Below, one piece after another: positions 44,630-46,518 of a stretch of DNA of 46,525 nt. The stretch is from Candidatus Saccharimonadota bacterium. Its GTDB lineage: Bacteria > Patescibacteriota > Saccharimonadia > Saccharimonadales > UBA4665. The stretch lies in NCBI GenBank assembly GCA_028286385.1, contig JAQBRQ010000030.1, positions 1-46,525 on the forward strand, read 5' to 3'. The notes beneath the pieces were generated by a model that did no database searches, was not told where the DNA came from, and worked only from the letters and a program-made list of their open reading frames with translations. Position 1 is the stretch's first letter. Each line of letters starts with the position of its first letter. Position numbers and translations under genes: made by a program.

Positions 44630-45030
44630 TGGCTAAAGATTCATACTTTTACGCCCTTGGCCGCCGCAAAAGCGCCACTGCACGTGTTCGCCTGGTAACC
44701 AGCGGTAAAGGCAACATGACTATCAACGGTAAGCCAGCAAACGAGTATTTTGCCGAAAGCAAATACTTGCTCGCTAAACTACAGCAACCTTTCGTAGCTC
44801 TCGACCAAGTCGACAAGTACGATGTGAGCGCTGTTGTATCCGGTGGTGGTCACGAAGGCCAGACCGAAGCTATTCGCCTCGGCATCGCTAAAGCCCTCGT
44901 CGTCATGAACGAAGACCTCAAGAGCACGCTCAAGCGCGCTGAGCTCTTAACTCGTGATGCCCGTGAGCGCGAACGCAAGAAGTTCGGCCTCAAGGGTGCT
45001 CGCAAGCAGCGCCAGTTTACCAAGCGCTAA
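44629..45030 (+). CDS. rpsI: Ribosomal protein uS9
   Basis: Small-subunit protein whose C-terminal tail touches P-site tRNA; 133 residues. YALGRRKSATARVRLV, GGGHEGQTEAIRLGIAKAL and the C-terminal RERKKFGLKGARKQRQFTKR with final Lys-Arg are normal. Last gene of the block; a terminator follows. Confidence 0.98.
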   Translation: MAKDSYFYALGRRKSATARVRLVTSGKGNMTINGKPANEYFAESKYLLAKLQQPFVALDQVDKYDVSAVVSGGGHEGQTEAIRLGIAKALVVMNEDLKSTLKRAELLTRDARERERKKFGLKGARKQRQFTKR

Positions 45031-45049
45031 TCCGCTTCGTAACTTCTTT

Positions 45050-45079
45050 AAACAGCCTCGAATTTTGGGGCTGTTTTTT
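45050..45079 (+). terminator. Rho-independent terminator after rpsI
   Basis: AAACAGCC (45050-45057) pairs with GGCTGTTT (45069-45076) around a short loop, followed by further T's. Confidence 0.9.
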
Positions 45080-45086
45080 GTTGCGT

Positions 45087-45131
45087 TTGACAACTCTTGA
45101 CATGAGGGTGTATATTACACGGTATGTCAAG
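45087..45131 (+). promoter_or_regulatory. Promoter and operator-like dyad of the DAHP synthase unit
   Basis: TTGACA (45087-45092), 18 nt and TATATT (45111-45116) place transcription near 45123, directly at the leader-peptide ATG. Around the -10 box lies an 8-bp perfect inverted repeat, CTTGACAT (45096-45103) and ATGTCAAG (45124-45131), with inner GTGTA/TACAC arms (45108-45120) nearly on the same centre. A repressor may bind here. Confidence 0.6.
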
Positions 45132-45204
45132 ACTTAGTGCAAACAGCAACCAGTATTGGTTTACCGACTCATCCCGTGGCGGTTATTTCGCTGTGTTTGC
45201 ATAA
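45124..45204 (+). CDS. Aromatic-rich leader peptide (26 aa)
   Basis: A 26-codon frame with six aromatic codons: Tyr11, Trp12, Phe13, Tyr21, Phe22 and Phe25. Its role would be to measure charged aromatic tRNA by ribosome pausing. The Gly19-Gly20-Tyr21 codons form the TGGCGGTT segment (45177-45184) that can pair with the terminator's left arm. It starts at the predicted transcription start, so it would be leaderless, as elsewhere in this window. It is the first part of the attenuator before the DAHP synthase gene. Confidence 0.8.
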   Translation: MSRLSANSNQYWFTDSSRGGYFAVFA

Positions 45205-45252
45205 ATTTACACAGAATCAAGATCAACAAAACCGCCACACAGGCGGTTTTTT
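45177..45252 (+). promoter_or_regulatory. Antiterminator/terminator pair before DAHP synthase
   Basis: The terminator is AAAACCGCC (45228-45236), loop ACACA, GGCGGTTTT (45242-45250) and further T's. Its left arm AACCGCCA (45230-45237) is exactly complementary to TGGCGGTT (45177-45184) inside the leader peptide gene. A ribosome stalled at codons 11-13 leaves 45177-45184 free to form the antiterminator; a ribosome that reads on covers it and lets the terminator form. Confidence 0.85.
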
Positions 45253-45276
45253 AATTTGTAAGAAAAGGAGAATATC

Positions 45277-46518
45277 ATGTCACCAGAACGAGGCATACAC
45301 GGTACATCAATACTAGAAGAATCAGCAAGGATTCGAGATGAACTGCTCCCAATTGAGGCAGCGGCTGCTGCCGATGCTCACGCCACACGCAGTAAGCTGC
45401 TGGAAGGCGCTCGCCTGCGACTAGGCTACGGTGAACCAGATGCCGGACCAACCGGAGGGCTCGTGGATACTCGCATATCCGAAAAGCGCCCGGTAATCAC
45501 TCCTGAGTCACTCAGTGAAGTATTGCCACCATCAGAAATTTCAGTAGCGACGACGCTAAAGAGTCGTAACGATATTGCCGAAATTCTGACACACCAAGAT
45601 GACCGGATGATCGTCATTGTAGGGCCGTGTTCGATTCATGACCCAGAAGCTGCACTTGAGTACGCCGAGCAAGTAAAAAACTGGAGAGAGCAGTACGGTG
45701 ATGACCTCGAGATTGTTATGCGCGCCTACATGGAAAAGCCGCGCAGCGAGCTTGATTGGAAGGGATTCATTTACGATCCTGAGCTCGATGGGTCGGATGA
45801 CATTAACCTTGGCGTTGTGGCTACGCACCTCGTCGCATGTCAGATAACAGATATGGGAGTCCCTATTGCTATGGAGCGGCTCAACGCGCTCACCCCGCAG
45901 TATGTTAATGGGCTTGTGGCCTACGACGCAATCGGCGCCCGTAACACAACCGACCAAAAGGCGCGCGAATATGGCTCCGGCACATCATCACCTGTGGGGT
46001 TTAAGAACACGCCTGAGGGCAGTATTGTGGCGGCCGCACAGGCCGTCGTAACGGCCAATGGAGCGCACGCATTTTTGGGTATGGGAATGAACGGTATGCC
46101 GAACCAGATCGAAACGACAGGGAATGAGCTGGCACACGTTATACTGCGTGGCGACCAGAATGGGCCAAACTATTCCGAAAAACACATCGCCGAAACAACT
46201 GCATTGCTCAAGAAGAAGGGTTTACTGAATGCGATAGTGATTGATGCATCACATGGCAACAGTCTCAAGGTTGCTGACAATCAAATCGAGGTCATAGCCG
46301 ACGTCAGCCGGCAGGTGGCGCTCGGTGAGCAAGCCATACGTGGCGTCATGATTGAGAGCAACCTGGTTGCAGGCTCCCAAAATCTTAAGAAAACACCAAA
46401 GGAAGAGCTCATATACGGACAGAGCGTTACCGACGAATGTGTGGGCTTGCCCGACACAATAACTATGCTGTCAGCATTAGCAGATGCCGTTCGGAAAAGA
46501 CGTTTAGTTACAAGTTAG
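45277..46518 (+). CDS. 3-deoxy-7-phosphoheptulonate (DAHP) synthase, class I
   Basis: First enzyme of the shikimate pathway: condenses phosphoenolpyruvate and erythrose 4-phosphate. The 413-residue protein is of the AroF/AroG/AroH type. Visible are IVGPCSIHDPEAALEYAE near residue 113, MRAYMEKPRSELDWKGFIYDP, DGSDDINLG, SSPVGFKNTPEGS, the phosphate/metal region IDASHGNS and GVMIESNLVAGSQ. About 70 N-terminal residues precede the usual start; such extensions often carry feedback-inhibition sites. AAGGAG lies 9 nt before the ATG. Aromatic biosynthesis is rare in reduced Patescibacteria, so the rest of the pathway should be sought elsewhere in the genome. Confidence 0.95.
   Translation: MSPERGIHGTSILEESARIRDELLPIEAAAAADAHATRSKLLEGARLRLGYGEPDAGPTGGLVDTRISEKRPVITPESLSEVLPPSEISVATTLKSRNDIAEILTHQDDRMIVIVGPCSIHDPEAALEYAEQVKNWREQYGDDLEIVMRAYMEKPRSELDWKGFIYDPELDGSDDINLGVVATHLVACQITDMGVPIAMERLNALTPQYVNGLVAYDAIGARNTTDQKAREYGSGTSSPVGFKNTPEGSIVAAAQAVVTANGAHAFLGMGMNGMPNQIETTGNELAHVILRGDQNGPNYSEKHIAETTALLKKKGLLNAIVIDASHGNSLKVADNQIEVIADVSRQVALGEQAIRGVMIESNLVAGSQNLKKTPKEELIYGQSVTDECVGLPDTITMLSALADAVRKRRLVTS

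Follow-up and report, generated by a model that had tools for sequence, protein, structure and literature searches.

A candidate aromatic attenuator with a predicted leaderless leader peptide precedes DAHP synthase and trpS genes in Saccharibacteria

Attenuators with features of the element reported here have been described in several bacteria outside the Patescibacteria. In Corynebacterium glutamicum, an attenuator leader, AroR, precedes the DAHP synthase gene aroF (Neshat et al. 2014, as related in PMC11802643 and PMC4046766). The trpL leader of Sinorhizobium meliloti is leaderless, i.e., its transcript begins with the ATG, and it acts by transcription attenuation (PMC7298713). Leaderless trp and leu leaders are also known from Streptomyces, where TrpL2 of S. 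lividans precedes trpS (PMC8079986). Given these published precedents, neither a leaderless attenuator leader nor an attenuator of a DAHP synthase gene is new. A preliminary description of the present locus had mentioned no known case of such an attenuator in Patescibacteria, and the literature that we searched (largely without subscription journals) indeed yielded no paper on a ribosome-mediated attenuator in this phylum.

The element lies near the end of the window, i.e., the whole stretch of 46,525 nucleotides that was analysed (Table 1). Its promoter matches 11 of 12 consensus positions, and the relatives discussed below are arranged likewise. The 26-codon frame with six Tyr, Trp or Phe codons, including Tyr-Trp-Phe in a row, that had been noted before was seen at 45124-45204, with the aromatic residues being Y11, W12, F13, Y21, F22 and F25. 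The complementarity reported between TGGCGGTT at 45177-45184 and AACCGCCA at 45230-45237 is exact and in fact grows from eight to nine nucleotides when GTGGCGGTT (45176-45184) is set against AACCGCCAC (45230-45238), the latter consisting of the terminator left arm plus the first bases of the loop. The terminator (45228-45250) reads AAAACCGCC-ACACA-GGCGGTTTT, is followed by the T-run and stands, as had been described, just upstream of the DAHP synthase gene, which starts at 45277. When 45030-45276 was shuffled 5000 times with dinucleotides preserved, the combination of leader, complementary segment and terminator never arose. Moreover, the window locus was the sole promoter-bearing match in a scan of 828,912 bases, which covers nearly the whole genome on both strands, and the reversed-sequence control of the same scan gave zero matches. 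When the window genome was scanned for other amino-acid leaders, two matches without promoters were found versus two in the reversed control, and we therefore claim no second attenuator in this genome.

Table 1 Features of the element in the window and of diverged first genes in related genomes
Feature	Position	Strand	Remark
Intrinsic terminator of the ribosomal-protein operon, 3′ of rpsI	45050..45076	+	Divides transcription units
Promoter	45087..45116	+	-35 TTGACA 45087-45092, 18 nt, -10 TATATT 45111-45116
Leader peptide MSRLSANSNQYWFTDSSRGGYFAVFA	45124..45204	+	ATG 7 nt 3′ of the -10 box; predicted leaderless
Control codons Tyr-Trp-Phe (TAT TGG TTT)	45154..45162	+	
Segment 1, ACCG	45163..45166	+	Pairs with CGGT of segment 2; pairing present in the predicted fold
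Segment 2, antiterminator 5′ arm GTGGCGGTT, within the leader frame	45176..45184	+	Covaries with segment 3
Segment 3	45228..45238	+	Terminator left arm 45228-45236; antiterminator 3′ arm 45230-45238
Segment 4	45242..45252	+	Terminator right arm 45242-45250, then T-run
Shine-Dalgarno AAGGAG of the DAHP synthase gene	45265..45270	+	
Type I (AroFGH) DAHP synthase	45277..46518	+	Catalytic motifs intact; 7 nt from stop to contig end
Diverged type I DAHP-synthase-like genes and one class II gene	L260:181-1227, L255:1342-2514, L282:1047-2162, L266:1500-2576, L245:2549-3496, L230:491-1462, L224:2606-3787		Behind the attenuator, upstream of trpS

The same element was found in Saccharibacteria of 14 family-level groups, 38 genomes in all, with a shared layout of a predicted leaderless leader carrying a Tyr/Trp/Phe cluster, an antiterminator segment and a terminator. 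Alignment of related genomes, the check that the preliminary description had proposed, thus came out strongly in favor of a conserved frame and conserved complementary segments. The aromatic cluster is present in every member by definition, taking the form of YWF or FWF in most; a YWFT motif is kept in many members, while the remainder of the leader peptide drifts. A degenerate genome pattern, which was too loose for counting (it matched the control about as often as the real sequence) and served as a source of leads only, pointed to the same leader and terminator upstream of trpS operons without AroFGH, and a search of the regions before trpS in additional genomes brought the total to 38. Since 14 of the 38 genomes were reached via DAHP synthase or the loose pattern, the fraction of genomes with the element would not be a fair estimate of its frequency. 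No element was found within 1.5 kb of trpS at 16 loci of the large family f26, nor at about 25 other, non-f26 trpS loci. Two genomes (G242 and G048) carry tandem attenuators (L289:881 and 1496; L282, two on the minus strand).

Segments 2, 3 and 4 were taken from 34 elements, and covariation was scored on the 31 distinct rows. In the antiterminator (segments 2 and 3), 83.9% of the cells are paired, seven of eight pairs are changed on both sides and 27 cells are doubly changed, giving a covariation score of 0.300 versus 0.095 in shuffles, none of 500 of which scored as high (the shuffles ignore relatedness); in shifted registers the score fell between 0.013 and 0.130. The terminator (segments 3 and 4) is 98.4% paired, with five of six pairs changed on both sides and a score of 0.250 versus 0.063 in shuffles, again with 0 of 500 as high and with relatedness ignored. 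For example, the exchanges include GGACGGT with ACCGTCC in family f28, where the terminator right arm is still GGGCGGT through a G-U pair, as well as AGCGGT with ACCGCT (G117), CGGGGT with ACCCCG (G434) and CTCGGC with GCCGAG (G358). Four segment-2 assignments in divergent members were picked by complementarity, a bias that is avoided by considering two positions of segment 3 that lie in the terminator loop. Of the 40 cells at these positions, 25 match segment 2, compared with 17.4 when partners are swapped (25 or more in 72 of 20000), and there is no match to segment 4 (4 matches against 3.9). The loop positions support the antiterminator specifically, without any choice of segments by complementarity.

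The geometry of the element is likewise constrained. Counting from the first base of the cluster's last aromatic codon, segment 2 starts after 15-17 nt in 27 of the 34 elements. The spacings of 15, 16 and 17 nt place it in three reading frames, and GGCGGT is accordingly translated as Ala-Val, Gly-Gly or Trp-Arg. Preservation of the antiterminator segment in all three frames implies that selection acts on the RNA. With two exceptions, the elements have 18-29 nt between the leader stop and the terminator. The predicted fold of 45170-45238 has the antiterminator as its minimum (-18.8 kcal/mol), and with segment 4 added the terminator belongs to the minimum. A pairing stretch of the segment 1 type occurs in 20 of the 34 elements, about 4.7 being expected from shuffles; it is 4 nt long and not evident in the other 14. 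The parts and the conservation of their order and spacing can be read from the sequences, as can the covariation of both alternative helices, and with frame and segments kept in 38 genomes they support the interpretation given in the preliminary description, namely that the element is, very probably, a ribosome-mediated transcription attenuator.

For such an attenuator we infer the 5′ end, the stalling and the direction of control as follows. Transcription would start at the leader ATG, or within a base or two of it, and the leader would be read from a leaderless mRNA. When charged Tyr, Trp or Phe tRNA is scarce, the leading ribosome would stall at codons 11-13 and cover segment 1, and segment 2 would stay free. 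With the usual footprint, a ribosome that has Trp12 or Phe13 in its A site reaches to about 45169-45172 and should leave segment 2 free. The free segment 2 would pair with segment 3 as it emerges and leave segment 4 without a partner, and RNA polymerase would continue into the DAHP synthase gene and probably trpS. With Tyr, Trp and Phe tRNAs all charged, the ribosome would proceed, segment 2 would be masked or paired with segment 1, and segments 3 and 4 would form the terminator, at which transcription would end. What the terminating ribosome would mask is less evident than for the trp leader of E. coli, given that the leader stop lies 2-28 nt past segment 2.

The suggestion that the sensor peptide is itself leaderless gains support from the promoter geometry, the 5′ end being a prediction. 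A -10 box is located 6-9 nt upstream of the start codon in 26 of the 34 elements (exactly 7 nt in 16), and a Shine-Dalgarno-like motif precedes the leader start in only two. Among the long ORFs of the window genome, 103 TATAAT-like boxes were counted at the three positions 6-8 nt before the start, versus ~15 expected from more distant positions. This pile-up at the leaderless distance suggests that leaderless starts are ordinary in this organism, and the leader start seems to follow a general style of the genome.

Conserved alternative helices upstream of trpS operons, which T-boxes often precede, would also fit an RNA that senses a ligand or a tRNA (a riboswitch or T-box), with the small frame being incidental. 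T-box and other riboswitch readings were rejected, as neither the window element nor the loci of 19 relatives matched any Rfam family at its gathering score. Furthermore, a start codon at a distance typical of a transcription start site, an open frame, a cluster of aromatic codons placed 15-17 nt ahead of segment 2 and a stop before the terminator all recur while the remainder of the peptide changes, and the predicted transcript from its start to the terminator spans only about 105 nt, in which no further conserved helix was seen. We regard a riboswitch or T-box as very unlikely.

The alternative helices might instead belong to a translational switch, or the hairpin could simply be a constitutive terminator with incidental complementarity; the 9-nt complement of the window, taken by itself, arises in 52 of 20000 shuffles of the 3′ part of the leader ORF. 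However, a T-run follows the hairpin in every member, the downstream Shine-Dalgarno sequence lies outside the hairpin, and segment 2 covaries with loop positions left unpaired by the terminator, which leaves little probability for either version. The conservation of YWFT in many members could also mean that the leader ORF encodes a functional small protein, which the terminator merely divides from the next gene. Against selection on a peptide, the C-terminal half is read in three frames over one nucleotide segment, and we consider such a protein extremely improbable.

The gene behind the element in the window encodes a type I DAHP synthase, as indicated by 369 bits to TIGR00034 (aroFGH, cut-off 173), a match to Pfam PF00793 and 304 bits to solved DAHP synthases. 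The residues that we take to bind metal and substrate in E. coli AroG (C61, R92, K97, R165, K186, R234, H268, E302 and D326) have equivalents that are invariant in the alignment (C118, R149, K154, R222, K243, R291, H326, E360 and D386). Of the 393 genomes of the order, only 11 have a gene of the AroFGH type (E <= 1e-40), and in nine of these the element lies directly upstream of it (the window genome G000, G003, G016, G019, G039, G343, G155, G352 and G434), while in G117 and G439 the element is not at this gene but upstream of trpS. In G019 the DAHP synthase is split over two frames with N bases between them (G019:C10:23125-24281; L005, L009), i.e., an assembly gap or a broken gene. The DAHP synthases of the order form two well separated lineages in the tree (the separating branch being fully supported), and the same element stands before both. 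One lineage adjoins Geodermatophilus and the other lies inside the main group; no such leader was seen in Geodermatophilus, which has the nearest DAHP synthases outside the order.

Control of the enzyme at the entry to the shikimate pathway, as proposed earlier, holds locally but not as a general account of the element, since later pathway genes were not found here and the element of the relatives mostly heads a trpS operon. In G000, G003 and G343, aroB and aroC were not found, and for aroA there were weak matches only, which we read as the related MurA; aroA, aroB and aroC are all present in G019, G155, G352 and G434. A tblastn search of G000 with the TyrA, PheA, AroK and Trp proteins of relatives gave nothing convincing. 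The assemblies of G000, G003 and G343 are 91-92% complete, so that the absence of a single gene means little; three genes missing in three genomes are hard to explain by assembly gaps. With aroA, aroB and aroC not found, these three genomes appear to have an orphan DAHP synthase. The intact catalytic motifs of the apparently orphan enzyme were checked for G000.

The element mainly heads the trpS operon, and its cargo is interchangeable. On the same strand, trpS follows the DAHP synthase gene by 13 bp in G343 and by about 1 kb in G003, with an M20-peptidase-like frame in between, and it lies 2.6 kb after the gene in G039, an order-mate of the window genome (contig CALMSM010000009.1). In the window genome trpS was not found in the assembly, and given that the contig ends 7 nt past the DAHP synthase stop, it very likely lies in the gap; we infer that it is the next gene. 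The first gene after the element encodes an AroFGH DAHP synthase in nine genomes, prephenate dehydratase in G036, a strongly diverged DAHP-synthase-like protein in G430, G005, G048, G014 and G358 (and in G021, there under the Pfam cut-off), and a class II DAHP synthase in G138. In several genomes (L217, L218, L279, L275 and L289) the first gene encodes a small protein of 64-87 aa with a common NKV/GIEV-P-DPRS look, and these proteins matched no Pfam family. Behind the element of G016 are genes for a prephenate dehydrogenase-like protein, chorismate mutase/prephenate dehydratase, an aminotransferase fragment, shikimate kinase, a TrpR relative and TrpC. A TrpR-like repressor is seen in the aromatic clusters of G016 and G019 (L017:2691-2945, L018:6968-7222), the former scoring 52 bits against TIGR01321, under its 67-bit cut-off, and the latter being recognized by eye only.

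The downstream genes fit the amino acids that would be sensed, as DAHP synthase, prephenate dehydratase and trpS concern their metabolism or charging. We tentatively suggest, at somewhat less than an even chance, that the element is a general sensor of aromatic tRNAs upstream of trpS, whose cargo has repeatedly been exchanged, and that genomes devoid of the shikimate pathway retain a DAHP-synthase-like protein for another function. In the case of such a sensor, the exchanged cargo may comprise the type I DAHP synthases of two lineages, the diverged DAHP-synthase-like proteins, the class II enzyme, prephenate dehydratase and the small proteins, and the other function may be a different reaction, the binding of an aromatic ligand, or an intermediate supplied to or from the host cell. 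Saccharibacteria are tiny, parasitic, genome-reduced epibionts and are said to lack most amino-acid synthesis. If the attenuator is real, such epibionts would still gauge the charging of aminoacyl-tRNAs through coupling of ribosome and RNA polymerase, and would do so from a leaderless start. It is puzzling that a putatively regulated DAHP synthase with intact catalytic motifs is retained where aroA, aroB and aroC were not found. The element would also give this phylum, which has no inducible expression system (for this need, see PMC11665869), a regulatory part that is compact and testable.

Aromatic leaders also precede DAHP synthase genes in other phyla, as a scan of named genomes revealed. 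Rhodococcus, Prescottella, Nocardia, Bradyrhizobium, Duodenibacillus and others have a YFWFS- or YFWYFS-like leader and a GC-rich hairpin before the gene, in several cases with a -10-like box near the start codon; their DAHP synthases, however, sit elsewhere in the tree than those of Saccharibacteria. The loci seen in Actinomycetota and Pseudomonadota are L060, L068, L082, L083, L090 and L105 (Nocardiaceae), L064 and L066 (Bradyrhizobium), L080, L089, L098 and L047. The DAHP synthase of L080, which is titled Mycobacterium sp. KBS0706, groups with Bradyrhizobium, and the label may be wrong.

Among the described systems, AroR of C. glutamicum shares with the window element a run of aromatic codons (there Phe-Tyr-Phe) upstream of a DAHP synthase gene and the read-through on stalling that is predicted here, as far as the secondary accounts of it go. 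By the same accounts, and unlike what we predict for the window, AroR reportedly responds to Phe and not to Tyr, and its run is given without Trp; the window element has Tyr, Trp and Phe codons, and its family belongs to another phylum and is found mainly at trpS operons. S. meliloti trpL has the leaderless leader and transcription attenuation that are predicted for the window element but senses Trp only and controls trpE(G). The TrpL2 leader of S. lividans is leaderless, as predicted for the window, and precedes trpS, whereas it has one Trp codon, is not triple-aromatic and has no reported U-rich terminator tract. The E. coli trp and pheA attenuators share the control codons and the mutually exclusive antiterminator and terminator but have leaders with a Shine-Dalgarno site and sense one amino acid each. 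Against the Rfam models Trp_leader (RF00513) and Phe_leader (RF01859), the window stayed below threshold, with 21.1 bits (gathering score 41) and 21.7 bits (gathering score 55), respectively. Each feature of the element has a precedent in these systems, and what appears to be new is this family of elements and its phylum, the combination of a triple-aromatic codon set with trpS, and the exchange of cargo.
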